Part shown: one piece after another, positions 16,596-43,277 of the stretch | Layout of the letters: every line of letters starts with the position of its first letter | Numbering within the stretch: the first letter of the stretch is position 1 | NCBI GenBank assembly: GCA_009927815.1 | Contig: RFMI01000065.1 | Span: 1-43,478, forward strand | Origin: Betaproteobacteria bacterium | Lineage (GTDB): Bacteria; Pseudomonadota; Gammaproteobacteria; Burkholderiales; UBA3065 | Reading direction: 5' to 3' | DNA: 43,478 nucleotides | Program-made: the position numbers and the translations under genes | Notes under the pieces: generated by a model | What the model saw: only the letters and a program-made list of their open reading frames with translations | Database searches by the model: none | What the model was told of the DNA's origin: nothing

Positions 16596-17774
16596 TCACA
16601 TACCGTGCTTGGCACGGTGCTCTTTGGCGGCTGCGACCGACTTCTCGCAGGCCTCGAGCAGCGTTTCGGCGCTGATGATCGGCAAGCCGGAGTTCTCAAT
16701 GATCTTGCGACCTTCGATGTAGTTGGTGCCGACCAGACGCACAATCAACGGGACGCGCAGGCCTTTGGCTGCCGCCACCACGCCTTCAGCAATCCAGTCG
16801 CAGCGGTTGATCCCAGCAAAAATGTTAACGAGGATGGCCGACACGTTCGGGTCCGACAGCACCAGCTTGAACGCCACCGCCACGCGCTCGGGGCTGGCGC
16901 CACCGCCAACGTCGAGGAAGTTTGCGGGCTCGCCACCGGCGTACTTAATGGTGTCCATGGTGGCCATGGCCAGACCGGCGCCGTTGATGATGCAACCAAT
17001 GTCGCCATCAAGGCCGACGTAGTTGAGGTTGTGCTGGCTGGCTTCGGCCTCGCGCGGATCTTCCTGGGCCAGGTCACGCATCTCGGCGATATCCGGCAGG
17101 CGGAACATCGCGTTGTCGTCAAAGCTCATTTTGGCGTCGAGCGCGATCACGCGGTCGTCTTTGGTGACCACCAGCGGGTTGATCTCGAGCATGGTCGCGT
17201 CCTTGTCACGGAAGGCGCGGTAGCAGCCCATGATGATCGACGTGGCGCGGCTCACCTGCTTGATGTTGAGACCCATGCCAAAGGCAATCTCACGCGCTTG
17301 GAACGGCTGCAAGCCCACGGCCGGCTCGACGATCACCTGCAGAATCTTCTCGGGTGCGGTCTGCGCGAGCTCCTCAATCTCCATGCCCCCCTCAGCCGAG
17401 GCGATCACGCGGATGCGTTCGGCCTTGCGGTCGAGCACGAAGCCCAGGTACAGCTCCTTCTCGAAGGCTTCGGCGACCTCGATGTAGACGCGCTCGCAGA
17501 GCTTGCCTTCAGGGCCGGTCTGGTGCGTCACCAGACGCTTGCCGATCATGCCGGCAGCGGCCTCCTGAACATCGTGGTAGGTCTTGCACAGCTTCACGCC
17601 GCCAGCCTTGCCGCGGGCGCCCGAATGGATCTGCGCCTTGACGGCCCAGTGCCAGCCACCCAGCTCGGTGGCGGCAAATGCCGCTTGTTCCGGCGTGTAG
17701 GCGACACGGCCGGGCTGAATGGCTACTCCGTACTTCGACAGCACATCCTTGGCTTGATACTCGTGGATATCCAC
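16596..17774 (-). CDS. mtkA: Malate-CoA ligase (malate thiokinase) beta subunit
   Basis: ATP-grasp subunit of malate thiokinase. The start codon is GTG at 17774, preceded by AAGGAGAG, and the protein begins [18 protein letters not shown]; 392 residues. Visible are the ATP-grasp region ([40 protein letters not shown]), the metal-binding [20 protein letters not shown], the CoA-ligase part [20 protein letters not shown] then [15 protein letters not shown], and [36 protein letters not shown] and [19 protein letters not shown] match methylotroph MtkA better than SucC. It lies 86 bases after fhs. Confidence 0.94.
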
Positions 17775-17860: not shown

Positions 17861-19531
17861 TCAGAACAGTCCGACTACCTTGCCGTTGTCGTCAATGTCG
17901 ATTTTCTCGGCGCTGGGCACCTTGGGCAGGCCCGGCATGGTCATGATGTCGCCACAAATCATGACGATGAACTGCGCACCCGCCGCCAGCCGCACTTCGC
18001 GGATGTTGACCATGTGGCCACTGGGGGCGCCACGCACGGTGGCGTCGGTGCTGAACGAGCTTTGCGTCTTGGCCACGCAAATCGGGTAGCTGCCGTAGCC
18101 AGCATCCTGCCAAGCCTGGATCTGCTGCTTGACCTTGGCCGGCGCGCTGATGTCGGCGGCGCCGTAGATCTTGGTGGCGACCTTCTTCATCTTGTCCCAG
18201 AGGCTGTCGCTGTCTTCGTAGACGAAGGTCGGCGAGCTCTTGCCTTCGGCGAGACGCACCACCTCGTGCGCCAGGTTCTCGGCGCCTGCACCACCCTTGG
18301 CCCAATGCTCGGCCAGCACCACGTTGGCACCCAGCGCCTTCATGCGCTCGGTGACCATGGCGATCTCGGCATCGGTGTCGAAGGTGAAGCGATTGATCGA
18401 CACCACACACGGCAGGCCGTAGTTGGTGGTGACGTTGTGGACGTGGCGCTCGAGGTTGACGAGACCCTTGCCGAGAGCGTCGAGATCCTCGGTGTTGAGG
18501 GCTTTGACGTCCTTGCCACCGTGGTATTTGAGTGCGCGCACCGTCGCTACAACGACGCAGGCTGACGGCATCAGGCCGGTCTTGCGGCACTTGATGTCGA
18601 GGAATTTCTCAGCGCCCAAGTCGGCGCCAAAGCCGGCTTCAGTCACCACGTACTCGCCGAGCTTTAGCGCGCTCTGCGTGGCGATCACCGAGTTGCAACC
18701 GTGGGCGATGTTGGCGAAGGGGCCGCCGTGGACGAAGGCCGGGTTGTTCTCCAGCGTCTGCACCAGGTTGGGCTTGAGCGCATCCTTGAGCAGCACGGTC
18801 ATCGCACCGTGGGCGTTGAGGTCGCGCGCGTGAACCGGCTTCTGGTCGCGGGTGTACCCGATGACGATGTCGCCGAGCCGCTCTTTGAGGTCCTTGACCG
18901 AGGTTGCCAGACAGAAAATGGCCATGACTTCGGAGGCCACCACAATGTCGAAGCCGTCCTGACGAACAAAACCGTTGGCGGTGCCGCCAATGCCGATGAC
19001 GATGTCGCGCAGGGCACGGTCGTTCATGTCGACGACGCGCTTCCAAGTGATGCGGCGCGGGTCGATGTCGAGCGTGTTGCCGTGGTTGATGTGGTTGTCG
19101 ATCATCGCCGACAGCAGGTTGTTGGCCAGCGCGATGGCCGAGAAGTCACCCGTAAAGTGCAGGTTGATGTCTTCCATCGGCACGATCTGCGCGTAGCCGC
19201 CGCCGGCCGCGCCGCCCTTCACACCGAACACCGGGCCGAGCGAGGGCTCGCGCAGGCAGATCACGGTCTTCTTACCGATGCGGTTGAGTGCGTCACCCAG
19301 ACCCACGGTGGTGGTGGTTTTGCCTTCGCCGGCCGGGGTCGGGCTAATGGCCGTAACCAGAATCAGCTTGCCGTTGGGCTTGCCCTTTAGGGAGTCGACG
19401 TAGTCAAGCGAGACCTTGGCCTTGAAATGACCGTACGGTTCCAGATGCTCGTCCGCGATGCCGAGCTTGGCGGCCACCTCGGTGATGCGCTTCATCGTCG
19501 CTTTCTGTGCAATCTCGATATCGCTGGCCAT
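17861..19531 (-). CDS. fhs: Formate-tetrahydrofolate ligase
   Basis: Also called FtfL. It makes 10-formyl-H4F from formate, ATP and H4F, the entry of formate carbon into the assimilatory folate branch. ATG 19531 ([20 protein letters not shown]) follows AAGGAG and gives 556 residues, the family norm. Key parts are the P-loop [59 protein letters not shown], and [19 protein letters not shown]. In serine-cycle methylotrophs this enzyme sets the flow of formate into biomass. It lies downstream of gckA by 39 bases. Confidence 0.96.
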
Positions 19532-23365: not shown

Positions 23366-24559
23366 TTAGCGCTTCAACAGACCCGACGGCGGCTGGTTGT
23401 TGCGCCAGTACTCGCTGGCCGCAGCGATGCCACTGCCCGGCTGCACCTTGATGCCGCAATCGAGCATGGCCATCTCGGCACCAGCGATGCCGGCCGAGAG
23501 GTGGACTTCGTTGAGGTCGCCGAGGTGGCCAATGCGGAACAGCTTGCCGGCAACCTTGGACAGACCGGCACCCAGCGACACGTTGTAACGGTGGTAGGCA
23601 CGCGCGATGACCTCAGCGCCGTTGATGCCTTCCGGCACCATGACAGCGGAAACGGTATCCGAATACCACTTCGGCTCCTTGGCGCACAGCTGCAGGCCCC
23701 AACCCTTCTGCACGGCAGCGCGGGCGCCTTCGGCGAGGTAGTGGTGACGGGCGATGATGTTGTCCAGGCCTTCTTCTTCGATGGCCTTGAGTGCTTCAAT
23801 CAGGCCATAGAACAGCGGCAGTGCCGGGGTGTAGGGGAAATAGCCGCTGGCGTTGGCGTTAATCATGTCGCCAAGATCGAAATAGCAGCGCTTCATCTGA
23901 GCGGTTGAGCGCAGGTCGAGAGCCTTCTGGCTGGCGCAGAGCACACCCAGACCAGCCGGCAGCATCATGCCCTTCTGCGAACCGGACACCGCCATGTCGA
24001 CGCCCCAGTCGTCAAAGCGGAAGTCGATCGAGCCCAGACCCGAGACGGTGTCGACGAACAGGAGTGCCGGGTGCTTGGCATCGTTCAGAGCCTTGCGCAC
24101 CGCGCCAATGTCCGAGGACACGCCGGTGGCCGTCTCGTTGTGGCAAGCCAGCACGGCCTTGATCTGGTGGCCGGTGTCGGCCTTCAGACGCTCGGCGTAC
24201 TGCTCGACCGGCACGCCAGTGCCCCACTCGACGTCGATGACCTCGACGTCCAGACCGAGGCGGCTGCACATGTCAATCCACAGGTGGCTGAACTGACCAA
24301 AGCGCGAGGCAAGGATCTTGTCGCCCGGGCTCAGGGTGTTGGTCACCGCGGCTTCCCAGCAACCGGTGCCCGACGACGGGAACACGAACGGGGTGCCACT
24401 GGTGGTGCGGAACAGCTTCTTCAAGCCGGGGACAATCTGCTCCCACAGCGACGGGAATTTCGGCGAACGGTGGTCTTCCATCGACACAACCATTGCACGC
24501 AGGACACGGTCGGGCACGTTGGACGGACCCGGAACGAACAGGAAATTACGACCAGCCAC
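23366..24559 (-). CDS. sgaA: Serine-glyoxylate aminotransferase
   Basis: PLP enzyme that converts serine plus glyoxylate to hydroxypyruvate plus glycine, the link that regenerates glycine for GlyA. Start is GTG 24559 with GAGGAG seven bases upstream, giving MAGRNFLFVPGPSNVPDRVL and 397 residues. Class V aminotransferase parts: VFPSSGTGCWEAAVTNTLSP, ACHNETATGVSSDIGAVRKA, LLFVDTVSGLGSIDFRFDDW with the PLP-contacting Asp, and the Schiff-base Lys in AVSGSQKGMMLPAGLG. A GC-rich hairpin lies between glyA and this gene, so it may mark a new transcript or an mRNA processing point. Confidence 0.95.
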   Translation of the reverse strand: MAGRNFLFVPGPSNVPDRVLRAMVVSMEDHRSPKFPSLWEQIVPGLKKLFRTTSGTPFVFPSSGTGCWEAAVTNTLSPGDKILASRFGQFSHLWIDMCSRLGLDVEVIDVEWGTGVPVEQYAERLKADTGHQIKAVLACHNETATGVSSDIGAVRKALNDAKHPALLFVDTVSGLGSIDFRFDDWGVDMAVSGSQKGMMLPAGLGVLCASQKALDLRSTAQMKRCYFDLGDMINANASGYFPYTPALPLFYGLIEALKAIEEEGLDNIIARHHYLAEGARAAVQKGWGLQLCAKEPKWYSDTVSAVMVPEGINGAEVIARAYHRYNVSLGAGLSKVAGKLFRIGHLGDLNEVHLSAGIAGAEMAMLDCGIKVQPGSGIAAASEYWRNNQPPSGLLKR

Positions 24560-24665: not shown

Positions 24666-25949
<1,284 letters not shown>

Positions 25950-37440: not shown

Positions 37441-39563
37441 ATGAAAAACAAAATTTTGCACAACAGCCTGTTGGCTGCTGCCGTCGCTGCCGCCTTTCCC
37501 GCTGTCGCCAACGCCAACGAAACCTCGCCAGTCGTGGTGACCGCCACCCGCGAGGCGCGCTCGAGTTTTGATCTGCCCGTGTCGATTGACGTTATCGACG
37601 CCGAAAATATTCAGTTCGGCCAACCGCAGGTGAACGCCTCCGAGAGCCTGATCCGCATTCCGGGCATCACCGCCAACAACCGCAACAACTACGCACAGGA
37701 CCCGCAAATCCAGACTCGCGGATTCGGTGCACGGTCGCAGTTCGGTGTGCGCGGCATCCGCATCTACCAAGACGGGATCCCGCTGTCGACGCCGGATGGC
37801 CAAGGTCAGACATCGACGTTCAACCTGTCGTCAGCCAAATCAATCGAAGTCATGCGCGGTCCCTTTAGCGCCTTGTATGGCAACAGCTCGGGCGGCGTAG
37901 TGCAGATCTTCACCAAAGACGGCCCGGCGCAACCTACGCTAAGCACGGGCGCCTGGTACGGCACTTACGGGACACACCGCGAAAATGTTCAGCTCGGCGG
38001 CACCGCCGGCATGCTCAACTACACGGTTGACGCAGCCCATTTCGAATCCAATGGATACCGGCAAAACAGTGCGGTCCGGCGCGACACGTTCAACACCAAG
38101 TTTTCGCTGCAGTTGGCTGAAAAAACCCGCCTGACCTGGACCGTAGCCGGCCTTGACCAGCCCGAGTCCATCGACCCACAAGGTCTGACCTTGGGCGAGT
38201 ACCGCAGCAACCGCAAGGCCGCCTCGCCGGATTCAATCACGTACCGCACGCGGGTGCAGCGTAGCCAGTACCAGACTGGCCTGGTGCTCGACCACCAATT
38301 CGACAATGGTGACAGCCTGCGCGCACTGACCTACTACGGCACGCGTGAGAACCTGCAGTTCCTCGCCGGCAACGCCTTCAACCTGCTGCCGGGCGCGAGT
38401 CAGATTCAGCGCGAATTTGGGGGCGTCGATCTGCGCTATACCCACCGCAATGACATTGCCGGTATGCCGCTTCGCGTTACCAGCGGTTTTAGTTACGAAC
38501 AAGCACTAGACAACCGCACCAGCCTAGCGACCAACGCCGCTCGTGAACTCGCCGGCGGTCTTGCCAATTTGACTGGGGCGGCAAGCACACGCGCCCGCGC
38601 CCGCAACGAAGAGAACAACTCGCGCTCGGCCGATCTCTACGCGCAAGCAGAACTCGAAGCCACGCAGCGCCTGAGCTTCCACATGGGAGCGCGTTACAGC
38701 CAGGTGCGGGTGCAGTTTGTCGACAAAATTCCGGCCACCGTGAATCCGGTCGGCAGCGGCACCAACTCCTACGAAAAAACTACGCCGGTTGCAGGCGTGG
38801 TGTTCAAGCTGACACCTGCGCTCAACTGGTACGCCAATGCCGGCATGGGTTTTGAGACGCCGACGAGTATCGAGCTGGCCTACACGGCCCAGAGCGCCTC
38901 TGTCGTCAACGGCAGCGGCCCGAACCTAGGTCTGCGTCCGGCCCAAAGTCGTAACTACGAGACCGGTCTCAAAGCCTTTCTCAACAGCGATACGCGTGCC
39001 ACGCTGGCCCTGTTCAAGACTGATACGCGTGATGAGATCGTGGTTGCCGGTACTCAATCGGGCCGCACTGCCTACGCCAACGGCGGTCGCACCGTCGCGA
39101 AGGCGTCGAACTGTCCCTCGACAGCCGCATCAACGACTATTTCAATGCGTACGCCGCATACACGTATCTAGACGCCACTTACCGCGACGACTTTGGTGAT
39201 GCCACGGTGAGCGAAACTGGCAAGCGTTTGCCCGGAACGTCGCGAAACATCCTCTACGGCGAATTGGCGTTCAACTACCCGGCCCTGGGCTTCAACGCGG
39301 CTCTCGAAGGCCGCTATGCGTCGCGGGTGTTCGCCAACGACGCGAACACGGCGCAGGCTTCTGGCTACACGGTGGCCAACCTCCGGGCCGGGTTCACGCA
39401 ACGCAGCGGCGGCTGGACGGTCAGCGAGTTTGCGCGCGTAGACAACATCTTCGACCGCCAGTATGTTGGTGCTGTGCGCGTCAATGACGGTAGCAGCCGG
39501 TTTTACGAAGCGGCTCCCACCCGTTTCGGCATGGTCGGGGTCAACGCCAGTTACGCGTTCTGA
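37441..39563 (+). CDS. TonB-dependent receptor, YncD/PqqU-like, interrupted by one base
   Basis: Outer-membrane beta-barrel transporter. ATG 37441 gives a signal peptide (MKNKILHNSLLAAAVAAAFP, cleavage near ANA). The plug domain reads SPVVVTATREARSSFDLPVS, QDPQIQTRGFGARSQFGVRG, IRIYQDGIPLSTPDGQGQTS and IEVMRGPFSALYGNSSGGVV, closely like E. coli YncD, which is reported to import PQQ. Barrel segments such as GFETPTSIELAY and DTRDEIVVAGTQSGRTAYAN agree. After GGRT (39093) the frame ends early at about 39171. Adding one base restores RREGVELSLDSRINDYFNAY and continues to VRVNDGSSRFYEAAPTRFGM and a terminal Phe at TGA 39563; the restored length is 707 residues. The ligand is inferred. Confidence 0.85.
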
Positions 39564-40169
39564 CCAACACCCCAACCCAGACGCTGGCGCAGTGCCCCCC
39601 ACTGCGCAGCGTCGGGCTCGCCCAAACGGCGGCGCACTGACGCCATATGTTTGAGCACCGTTTCGCGCGACAAGCCAATCACCTCCGCACAACCCCTGCC
39701 GTGCGCCCTGCATCCAGAGGCGCAACACCTCGAACTCGCGATCGGTGAGTCGCTGCAAGGCAGTCACCTCCGGATCGCTAGTGGCTGCCAGCACGCTGGG
39801 CACCAGGTCGCGGTCCAGCATCACTTTGCCTTGCGCCGCTGCCAACACGGCTTCAGCCAAGGTCTGAGCAGCTGCGGGTTTCAACAGGTAGCCGCTCGCG
39901 CCGAGGCTGCGCGCGCGCAACCAGAACAGCGGATGGCTGAGCCGGCTGTAGACCAGCACACGTGTGCGGGGCAGTCGGCGCCGCGCTAATCGCATCAAAG
40001 TCAGTCCGCTGAGTCCGGGCAACTCGATGTCGACGAGCAACAGATCAGGCCGGCTGCGAATGGCACTTGCCATTGCAGACGCGTGATCCGCGGCATGTTC
40101 CAGGTCGTGGGAGTCCAGCGCCTGACTCGCCGCCAACGCCTCGTCCGGCTGAACGATCAGCACTCGCAT
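39551..40169 (-). CDS. NarL/FixJ-type response regulator, interrupted by one extra base
   Basis: ATG 40169 (MRVLIVQPDEALAASQALDS) starts a receiver domain with the phosphoacceptor Asp in LLLVDIELPGLSGLTLMRLA, Ser in VLVYSRLSHP and Lys in GYLLKPAAAQTL. The LuxR-type helix-turn-helix begins LTDREFEVLRLWMQGARQG, then the frame breaks in a GGGG run (minus strand; 39693-39696). Removing one G restores CAEVIGLSRETVLKHMASVR and RRLGEPDAAQWGALRQ, ending at TAA 39551-39553, total 205 residues. The uncorrected frame runs on antisense to the receptor to 39168. No histidine kinase lies directly beside it; it converges on the receptor gene with a 13-base overlap. Confidence 0.8.
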
Positions 40170-40384
40170 TCGCCTCTCCGACCCGGTCCAGACAACGGCC
40201 CTGTCAATCATAAGAAGCTAGGTGAATCCGGCCTGCCAACTCAGTGAATGGCTCCCGCGCTATGGGGGAATATCTCCCGCCAAGGGTGATCAAATGGGTC
40301 TAGTTCTTAATAGGGCAATTTTTTATGCCCCAATCAATGGCATGCCGGGAATTTTTCCTGTGTAGCGATGGACTATAGGTCCGT

Positions 40385-40437: not shown

Positions 40438-40935
40438 ATGACCCATCGTATTTTGATTGCTGCAACCGCACTCGCCTTTGCTCCGCTCGCCGCGCAAGCC
40501 CACGACGAGATCGTCGCTTGCACCAACGCCGTACTGAAAGCCTACCCGGGCACCGTGGTCAAGCTCGAAGTCAAGACTGAAAACAAGGCCACCGTGTACG
40601 AATTCGACGTGCAAAAGGCCGACGGCAGCGCTTGGGACATCGAGTGTGACGCCGCAACGGCCAAGGTGAGCGAAGTCGAACAGGAAGTCAGCCCGACCGA
40701 CGCAAAGTGGACGTCCAAGGTGAAGGTCTCGGAAGCGGATGCCAAGGCGACCGCCCTCAAGGCTTTCCCGGGCACTGTGGTCGAAACCGAATACGAGATC
40801 GAACCGAACGGCGCCCTGTCGTACGAATTCGACATCAAGGGCAACGACGGCAAGGAATACAAGGTTGAAGTTGACGCCGTCACCGGTAAGGTGGTCGAAA
40901 GCTCGGTCGAGATGGCGCAAATCGGCCAGGGCTAA
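40438..40935 (+). CDS. Periplasmic protein with two PepSY-like repeats
   Basis: A 165-residue secreted protein with signal peptide [21 protein letters not shown] and cleavage near AQA. The mature part consists of two similar repeats: [20 protein letters not shown] followed by [20 protein letters not shown], and [20 protein letters not shown] followed by [20 protein letters not shown], each ending ATAKVSE or VTGKVVE. This is the PepSY pattern, often linked to metal-dependent peptidase inhibition or redox/membrane proteins. It is acidic overall. GGAG lies eight bases before the ATG. A strong terminator follows, so it is a single-gene unit. No function is assigned. Confidence 0.87.
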
Positions 40936-41058: not shown

Positions 41059-41643
41059 GTGAAGCCGTGTCCGATTGCCCCTCGCCGAGTACTTGCCAGT
41101 CTGGCAATCACGCTGACCGCTGTCTCGCCCGCACTGGCCGTGCCCTCCGGACCCTACTTGATGTCTGCAGACGGCCATACACAGTTTGTTATCGATGAGG
41201 CAGTGGGTCGCATACGAGCGATCGACCGCTCGACCCACCAGATGCGCTGGGAAGTGACAGTCGCCAGCGGCCTGCGCGGTACCGCGCTGTCCCTGGACGG
41301 GCGGCAAATCTTGGCTTGCAGCGGGCGGGCGGGCGAAATCACCGTCATCGACATCGCGGAGGCGCGCATCGTCGGGCACCTGCGCATGAACAGCGCTGCA
41401 CCACGCCACTGCGTGTTCTCACCGGACCGGCGCTGGGTGGTCGTCTCACCGGCAACCCAAACAACGCTCGAAGTAGTCGAACTCGACAGTGGACGTGTAC
41501 GCCATCGCATCCCCTTGCCCGCAGCTCCGAGCAAACTGGTGTTCGACAAACACCAGCTGCGGGTGGCGTTCCCTGATGTCGGCAGAGTCGAAGTGATCGA
41601 CACGCGCGGTTGGCACCGCCGACACGGGGTGGTCGGGCCATGA
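41059..41643 (+). CDS. Secreted beta-propeller-like (YVTN-type) protein coupled to a kinase
   Basis: A 194-residue protein from GTG 41059. The N-terminus is a signal peptide (MKPCPIAPRRVLASLAITLT, cleavage near ALA). The remainder has repeated beta-strand patterns of the YVTN/WD-like kind: GRIRAIDRSTHQMRWEVTVA, GTALSLDGRQILACSGRAGE, ITVIDIAEARIVGHLRMN, CVFSPDRRWVVVSPATQTTL and EVVELDSGRVRHRIPLP. That is three to four blades, too few for a closed propeller, so it may oligomerise or be a half-propeller. The stop overlaps the ATG of the histidine kinase gene as ATGA (41640-41643). A role in sensing for the kinase is inferred from this coupling. Confidence 0.75.
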   Translation: MKPCPIAPRRVLASLAITLTAVSPALAVPSGPYLMSADGHTQFVIDEAVGRIRAIDRSTHQMRWEVTVASGLRGTALSLDGRQILACSGRAGEITVIDIAEARIVGHLRMNSAAPRHCVFSPDRRWVVVSPATQTTLEVVELDSGRVRHRIPLPAAPSKLVFDKHQLRVAFPDVGRVEVIDTRGWHRRHGVVGP

Positions 41644-42631
41644 AGCAGCGGCATAATCCGGCCATGCACATTCCCAAACCGAACCTCGCGCTTCCGGACT
41701 ATCCGTCGCGCAGCTTGCGCGACCTGCGGCAGTGGTGCTGTTCACGGCGGCCGCGTTTTGGATTGCTGCATGGCTGGAGCTCAACGAGCGCATCAACCGC
41801 TGGACTGCCAGCGGCGAGTTCTGGCAGGCCGACGAATTGCGCACCACGCTACTGGCGCTGGCACTCGCGCTCGGCTGGTTCTCCTGGCGACGCTGGCGCG
41901 AACTCAAAGCGGAGCTGACGCTGCGCACGCAGCTGCAGGGCGAACTCGCGCGCGCGCTCGCCGCAAACCGGCAATTGACGCGGCGTAGCTTGGAGTTGCA
42001 GGAGACCGAGCGTAAGCACATTGCGCACGAACTCCACGATGAGCTGGGTCAGTATCTCAACGCCATCGAGATCGAGGCGGTGTCCTTGCGCAGCGAACTG
42101 GCGAGCGCACCCGCGATTCAGGTGGAGTCGGTCGAGCGCATCCGTGTGCTAGCACGCCACGTGTACGACGTCGCCCGCACCCTGATGCGACGACTGCGGC
42201 CCGTGGGGCTGGACGAACTGGGCTTGGAGGCTGCGCTCCAGCAGTTACTCGAACACTGGCGAGTCCGCCGCACCGAGGTGCACTGCGCGCTGCAGGTGGA
42301 CCCGCGCATTCCGACCTTGCACGAGGACCTCAACGTCGCGATCTTCCGCATGGTGCAAGAGGCACTCAACAACATCGCCCGACACGCTCAAGCTACGCAA
42401 GTTGACGTGCAGCTGACCGCCAGCGACGCCGAGTGGCTGCAACTGGTGGTGTCGGACAACGGCGTGGGCATGGCTGCAAAGGCTCCGGCCGGACTCGGAC
42501 TGACCGGCATTCGCGAACGCGCCGAGCTGCTCGGCGGCAGCTGCACCATCGAATCTGGCAATGGCGTACGGCTGACGCTGCGCCTGCCACTCAGCCCCGT
42601 GCCACTCCCTGAGGACCCTGACGATGATTGA
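41640..42631 (+). CDS. NarX/DegS-type sensor histidine kinase, interrupted by one base
   Basis: Start at ATG 41640 overlaps the upstream stop and reads MKQRHNPAMHIPKPNLALPD, then YPSRSLRDLR; the frame then breaks at about 41730. Adding one base joins it to VVLFTAAAFWIAAWLELNER (first membrane helix), a second helix LLALALALGWFSW, a HisKA_3 domain with the phospho-His in TERKHIAHELHDELGQYLNA, and a HATPase_c domain with EALNNIARHAQATQVDVQL, VVSDNGVGM and GLGLTGIRERAELLGGSC. Restored length is 330 residues. As given, translation could begin only at GTG 41732. There is no sizeable periplasmic sensor domain, only a loop of about 35 residues. The 3' end overlaps the response regulator gene by eight bases. 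Confidence 0.88.
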
Positions 42632-43277
42632 CGTGTTGCTGGTTGACGACCACGCCGTGGTGCGCGAGGGCTACCGTCGTCTGCTCGAACGCACCGAAGA
42701 CATCCGTGTGGTGGCCGAGGCTGGCAGTGGCGAGGAGGCCTATCGGCTGTTCTGCGAATTGCGACCGAGCCTGGTGATTATGGACATCTCGCTGCCCAAG
42801 ATGAGCGGCATCGAGGTGACGCGGCGAATCATCGCGCGCGAGCCGAACGCGCGCGTGCTGGTGTTCAGCATGCATGAGGACGTGGTGTTTTCCAGCCGGG
42901 CGCTGGCCGCCGGCGCCAAGGGCTACATCGCCAAATCGGCGGCGCCATCGGTGCTGATCGAGGCGGTGCGCAAGATCGCCAGCGGCCAGGCCTACGTCGA
43001 CCACCCGCTGGCGCAAAAACTCGCGCTGCAATCGTTCGAGGCCGAGGGCGCGCTGGCCAGCCTGACCGAGCGCGAATTCGAGGTGTTTCGCCTGCTGGCG
43101 CAAGGCAAGTCGGTGGCCGACATTGCCGGCATCCTCAACCTGACGCAAAAGACCGTCGCCAACCACCAGTCGGCACTGCGGCAGAAGTTGGGCATCGACA
43201 ACGCCGCGCAACTGGTGCGACTGGCAGCGAGGCACGGGCTGGTGGAGGAATTCACCTTTAGAGACGCCGGCGATTGA
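42624..43277 (+). CDS. NarL/LuxR-family response regulator
   Basis: Cognate regulator of the upstream kinase; 217 residues. Receiver domain: acidic pair in VLLVDDHAVVREGYRRLLER, phosphoacceptor Asp in SLVIMDISLPKMSGIEVTRR, Ser in VLVFSMHEDVVFSS and Lys in AKGYIAKSAAPSVL. LuxR-type helix-turn-helix: LTEREFEVFRLLAQGKSVAD, IAGILNLTQKTVANHQSALR and QKLGIDNAAQLVRLAARHGL. Its targets are unknown; nearby secreted proteins and the PQQ-receptor-like gene are possible but unproven. Confidence 0.94.
   Translation: MIDVLLVDDHAVVREGYRRLLERTEDIRVVAEAGSGEEAYRLFCELRPSLVIMDISLPKMSGIEVTRRIIAREPNARVLVFSMHEDVVFSSRALAAGAKGYIAKSAAPSVLIEAVRKIASGQAYVDHPLAQKLALQSFEAEGALASLTEREFEVFRLLAQGKSVADIAGILNLTQKTVANHQSALRQKLGIDNAAQLVRLAARHGLVEEFTFRDAGD

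Follow-up and report, generated by a model that had tools for sequence, protein, structure and literature searches.

The window, a 43,478-nucleotide stretch of DNA, constitutes contig C63 (RFMI01000065.1) of a 1.76-Mb assembly that consists of 140 contigs and is 94% complete. Near its end lies a gene for a TonB-dependent receptor of the PqqU (YncD) family, which occupies positions 37441-39563 and is split over two reading frames. The N-terminal part (37441..39098, +) encodes the signal peptide, a TonB-box-like stretch, PVVVTA, at about 37,528-37,545, the plug and most of the barrel, and the last barrel strands, comprising ~155 residues, are encoded in a different frame by the C-terminal part (39087..39563, +). 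Read from 37,441 (+), the first frame runs into a stop at 39,171; the loss of frame falls within 39085..39110 (+), a site for which two genomes of the genus have intact copies. Both the plug and the barrel were matched in the Pfam profile search, and in the NCBIfam profile search the TonB_rec_PqqU model was the best one for both parts, at the consecutive model positions 2-522 (416 bits; next family, 118 bits) and 520-675 (151 bits). These results uphold the initial annotation of a TonB-dependent receptor starting at 37,441 (+), as well as its coordinates, but not its single reading frame, the break having gone unnoticed.

The receptor gene is located between hrpA and a block comprising a lone regulator, a PepSY protein, a propeller, a kinase and a regulator, and this neighbourhood is conserved, with the same gene order, in the three genomes of the genus that have the receptor. 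The lone response regulator (39168..40211, -) loses its frame before the DNA-binding helix. The small, exported PepSY-domain protein (40438..40935, +) has two PepSY matches, is 72-76% identical in the sister genomes and is more conserved among them than the adjacent YVTN-type beta-propeller protein (41059..41643, +), which is shortened to 194 aa compared to 351 and 346 aa in the sister genomes. The histidine kinase of the HisKA_3, UhpB/NarX type (41732..42631, +), with its N-terminus in another frame, is followed by its partner, a NarL/GacA-type response regulator (42624..43277, +). Of the two regulatory systems previously described next to the receptor, this kinase/regulator pair was recovered, whereas the other proved to be the lone regulator and no second system; the neighbouring beta-propeller-like protein was confirmed, albeit in shortened form. 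In the sister genome G002, the kinase/regulator pair is followed by a gene (L025:181-645, -) for a 154-aa exported-looking protein that matched neither NCBIfam nor Pfam models under the thresholds applied.

A propeller gene, yncE, also lies beside pqqU in E. coli, and its product is likewise an exported YVTN-type propeller with seven blades (3vgz), but the identity between YncE and the window-type propeller is about 31% over 161 aa. We rejected the assignment of the latter as a YncE orthologue, as the intact sister protein scored 47.3 bits against the NF052280 cut-off of 400. The propeller fold matched many 7-bladed propellers, and YncE was absent among the 50 matches listed. Published xoxF3 clusters also include genes labelled as a YncE-type protein and as a TonB receptor (PMC10875860).

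A phmmer search with the receptor retrieved E. coli YncD (6v81) with an E-value of 4.8e-104 and PqqU (9c4o) with 2.2e-102, followed by a next best match of 1e-14, so that these solved relatives lead by about 90 orders of magnitude and the closeness to YncD noted earlier is borne out. The identity to E. coli PqqU amounted to 203/526 aligned residues in the N-terminal part and 61/154 in the C-terminal part (39-40% over both parts). PqqU has been defined by Y/F/W99, R304, and R365 (Munder et al., 2025; PMC12124388), and the window receptor has phenylalanine at the PQQ-stacking position of E. coli Y99 (37741..37743, +) together with R304 and R365. It also shares R536, Q84, and Q308 with E. coli K-12 PqqU, which is likewise a 22-strand TonB-dependent receptor. 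The three-residue signature was present in 118/118 PqqU rows, counted after 3/121 receptor loci with open frames under 600 aa had been dropped, and in 0/24 other receptors. Two further pocket residues, K274 and R536, are important in E. coli PqqU without being part of the authors' filter, and the replacement of K274 by glutamate harmed import (PMC12124388). Of the PQQ-binding residues proposed for inspection, F99, R304, R365, and R536 are thus kept, but K274 is not: the window receptor has valine at this position and an arginine two residues on, at the position of E. coli I276 (38254..38262, +), so that a basic residue appears relocated. Unlike E. coli PqqU, moreover, the window receptor has an interrupted frame and belongs to a host that makes PQQ, of which E. 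coli has no synthesis of its own (PMC12124388).

As for the phylogeny suggested in the initial annotation, a 64-row tree from a quick, short search, with long outgroup branches, placed the receptor inside PqqU together with the E. coli protein (SH-aLRT 93) and away from six other receptors, namely FhuA, BtuB, CirA, and three from the same order. The structure predicted for the intact sister protein, with a mean pLDDT of 70.8, had 9c4o and 6v81 as its top fold matches (TMt 0.89 and 0.91), the highest other value among the matches listed being 0.84. The siderophore receptor model TIGR01783 remained below its cut-off of 223.5 bits for both parts (117.9 and 57.2). The 1200-bit cut-off of the NF041535 equivalog, an NCBI naming threshold that lies outside the published PqqU definition, was not reached by the window receptor (416 + 151) or the intact sister (548). 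Based on these results, we concluded that the gene is pqqU, a member of an ordinary family of known kind.

The genome that contains the window encodes both the synthesis of PQQ and enzymes that use it. A pqqABCDE operon is present on contig C55, along with a second pqqA elsewhere; pqqC is in two frames, and pqqB, pqqD, and pqqE have whole frames. The operon is also kept in the sister genome G002. A TonB protein is encoded as well, as are two methanol dehydrogenases that scored above the family cut-off and contain the WDFD motif, which was read in loci L030, L032, and L037 only, the other 10 dehydrogenase loci having given no motif, most of them in the wrong frame. The extra aspartate in WDFD is a mark of lanthanide-dependent XoxF enzymes, and by this motif the two methanol dehydrogenases are probably lanthanide-dependent. 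The attribution of the DNA to a serine-cycle organism is supported by genes in the window itself, namely those for malate-CoA ligase beta (16,596-17,774), formate-THF ligase (17,861-19,531), and glyA (24,666-25,949); an aminotransferase of the BhcA/serine-glyoxylate type (23,366-24,559) scored below its family cut-off. The search for pqqA-E thus had an outcome contrary to the premise of absent biosynthesis, and scavenging for lack of synthesis was rejected in view of pqqABCDE in the same genome. Support of methylotrophy by the receptor, as proposed earlier, remains plausible as recapture of PQQ but not as a replacement for its synthesis.

The pqqA gene was found in all five genomes of the genus examined, and pqqB or pqqE was not detected in G001 (82% complete), G003 (79% complete), and G004. 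We rejected gene loss as the reading of the latter result, given the presence of pqqA in all five: assembly gaps explain it equally well, because the G001 and G004 contigs begin inside the proline-rich tonB and G003 and G001 have the completeness stated above. Stand-alone extra copies of pqqA away from the operon were observed in the window's own genome, after a typA/bipA-like gene (L023:8491-8547, contig C136), in G002 (C2:11482 and C1:33309), and in G004, which has three copies. The database record of the sister genome at L072 (CAMDGF010000004.1) bears the title Klebsiella pneumoniae. This name must be wrong, as the genome belongs to the window's genus and the order includes Methylovorus.

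We further surveyed 120 genomes of the order that are at least 90% complete. The survey detected pqqU in 42, pqqB in 28, and both in 21 genomes; pqqU was thus present in 21/28 genomes with pqqB compared to 21/92 without it (Fisher p 1.6e-6, in which independence is overstated because the genomes of the order are related). The half of the pqqU genomes that have no pqqB (21/42) would be scavengers. Within the genus, pqqU was not detected in two of the five genomes, G003 and G004, both of which have methanol dehydrogenases and pqqA. The absence is likely real in G004, which is 91% complete, and the receptor appears to be dispensable for the lifestyle, since it was not found in these two genomes, one of them only 79% complete.

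The distance between pqqU and pqqB is 2.6-6.1 kb in 11 of the 21 genomes that have both genes. In eight of these close pairs (L232, L234-L237, L239-L241), the receptor is separated from pqqBCDE by genes for a response regulator, a histidine kinase, a prolyl aminopeptidase, and a TonB protein (in L241, the last was found by tblastn only), which run opposite to pqqBCDE; in the remaining three, the receptor has the same direction as pqqBCDE. Previously, pqqU was described as generally non-syntenic with the pqq operon, apart from four cases in Burkholderiales, in which the orientation is the same (PMC12124388). The receptors of the eight clusters belong to the same family as the window receptor, and the window's genus has homologues of the regulator, kinase, aminopeptidase, and TonB genes next to its pqq operon, but its receptor sits elsewhere on the chromosome. 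In G002, a TonB gene (L190:6441-7223, -) is divergent from pqqA and is followed by a zinc hydrolase, the aminopeptidase, the kinase, and the regulator; in the window's genome, contig C55 ends with the N-terminus of TonB (L024:3352-3918), and C54 contains the remaining block. Many genomes of the order have comparable TonB genes next to pqqU or a pqq operon, and our literature search found no paper on a TonB gene divergent from pqqA or adjoining pqq operons.

PQQ-type neighbours (pqqB/E, zinc hydrolase, PQQ dehydrogenase, or propeller) were present at 16/40 and 27/79 pqqU loci and at 0/20 control receptor loci. The loci compared were 3-22 kb long and the controls about 19 kb (one 14.7 kb), and the TonB limit of 60 bits in the neighbour count was set after the scores had been seen, so that control TonB matches of 31-58 bits (3/20) fall below it. 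The 79 named loci are the best 80 of 585 relatives minus L072, which is the sister genome itself, and the conservation seen among them is in part a result of this selection; three loci are common to the named and order sets. In loci of the Methylophilaceae type (L073, L075, L077, L083, L087, L088, L098, L256, and L257), genes for a quinoprotein-relay zinc hydrolase and for TonB lie next to pqqU, and nine propellers were found at the 79 named loci, all within 3.1 kb of the receptor.

These data bear on what the receptor transports and on whether the gene is functional. That it is a receptor for a siderophore or another substrate and merely resembles PqqU is highly improbable: overall identity alone cannot tell the substrates of TonB-dependent receptors apart (PMC12124388) and one pocket residue differs from PqqU, but the signature that is kept occurs in none of the other receptors, the tree groups the protein with PqqU, and homologous loci adjoin PQQ genes, which the other receptor loci do not. 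The interrupted frame admits the reading that the locus is decaying in this strain, with true pseudogenes for the receptor, the lone regulator, the propeller, and the kinase. Four genes are disturbed inside 5 kb, the propeller is without about 100 C-terminal residues (its last blades) with no space for them before the kinase, and among the 33 window genes compared with the sister the receptor alone was called frame-broken. However, 7/95 genes of the window's assembly have frame changes relative to G002, compared to 1/96 in the reverse comparison, and the broken genes include pqqC and aminopeptidase N, both of high identity. An earlier comparison that included an antisense shadow frame gave 7/81, with a slightly different list of broken genes from the 7/95 set. 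The two receptor parts are each 66-73% identical to the sister protein and retain all signature residues, and intact copies exist in congeneric genomes as open frames of 728 aa (G002, 73% identity) and 719 aa (G001, 69%). Decay of the locus is therefore somewhat unlikely, and the loss of frame appears likelier to be an assembly fault, because the same assembly breaks so many more genes than its sister, the high-identity pqqC included.

The source of the PQQ taken up was weighed in the same way. The receptor might mainly serve to scavenge PQQ from outside sources, as E. coli PqqU does, while the strain's own synthesis would be minor, silent, or lost: the split pqqC could impair synthesis, half of the order's pqqU genomes are without pqqB, and high affinity fits dilute PQQ (PMC12124388). 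We consider this quite unlikely, since the frames of pqqB, pqqD, and pqqE are whole, the sister genome keeps pqqABCDE, and pqqC is 95 and 98% identical to the sister's gene on either side of its break, as would fit an assembly fault, and 7/95 genes of this assembly are broken. Recapture is most likely the main role, because the host synthesizes PQQ itself, although the pqqU gene of the genus is not beside the pqq operon. We thus hold it to be quite probable that the receptor is a PqqU that takes up PQQ, mainly recapturing what has leaked from this PQQ-making methylotroph or was made by neighbours and not replacing synthesis. Both the loss of PQQ by diffusion and its recapture by producers have been raised before (PMC12124388). 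The earlier proposal of a candidate PQQ importer accordingly stands on homology, tree, and signature, whereas the need to scavenge does not.

By analogy with E. coli PqqU, from which substrate, affinity, and TonB-driven transport are extrapolated, the outer-membrane receptor would bind nanomolar PQQ in a basic pocket that the plug closes off; once TonB moves the plug, PQQ would be pulled into the periplasm. PQQ made by the host that leaks out, or PQQ from neighbours, would be brought back in this way. An inner-membrane carrier would not be needed, because methanol dehydrogenases use PQQ in the periplasm.

The relocated basic residue is a property of a whole group of receptors. In 26 receptor rows, the window included, position 274 is valine in 25 and alanine in one, and position 276 is arginine in 25 and lysine in one. 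In contrast, the other 93 rows have K, R, or E at position 274 and a basic residue at 276 in 0/93. The alignment of the adjacent TR and Q278 is free of gaps, and therefore the charge has moved two residues along the barrel strand; on such a strand, the side chains of residues i and i+2, here 274 and 276, would be expected to point in the same direction. The 25 V274-type rows in the 64-row tree form one clade with full support (100 SH-aLRT), which unites the window's genus with most of the Methylophilaceae detected and with a small number of other genomes. Among the named genomes, pqqB was detected in 18/19 with the V274 pocket compared to 7/24 without it, a link confined to a single clade and thus amounting to about one event, and methanol/ethanol-type PQQ dehydrogenases (E <= 1e-100) were detected in 16/19 and 16/24, respectively. 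The premise of absent PQQ synthesis is thus also at odds with the genomes that share the pocket. The Methylophilaceae receptors (Methylobacillus, Methylovorus, Methylophilus, and Methylotenera) have the same V274/R276 pocket, and their hosts have pqqB and mostly methanol dehydrogenases; there, however, the gene is often beside the quinoprotein-relay zinc hydrolase and a TonB gene, whereas in the window it lies between hrpA and the PepSY/propeller/kinase block.

In the E. coli complex, K274 occupies the spot where PQQ holds the metal in dehydrogenases, and the main text of the same article makes no mention of the valine or of I276 (PMC12124388). As V274 would open this metal spot, uptake of metal-loaded PQQ is conceivable. 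On this basis we put forward, as a speculative and rather improbable possibility, that V274/R276 receptors take up PQQ still bound to its calcium or lanthanide, or else in another charge state, through a recapture route that is dedicated to it and served by a TonB of its own. If true, this would represent a TonB-dependent path for a metal-loaded cofactor in lanthanide users.

PQQ import has been viewed mainly as a scavenger trait that is generally without linkage to the synthesis operon (PMC12124388); in the order studied here, it is enriched in PQQ makers. In half of the genomes with both, the importer gene is found close to those for synthesis, and a TonB gene and a two-component system often occupy the interval. 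Why a producer would import its own cofactor thereby becomes a testable question, with pocket positions 274 and 276 as the named targets.
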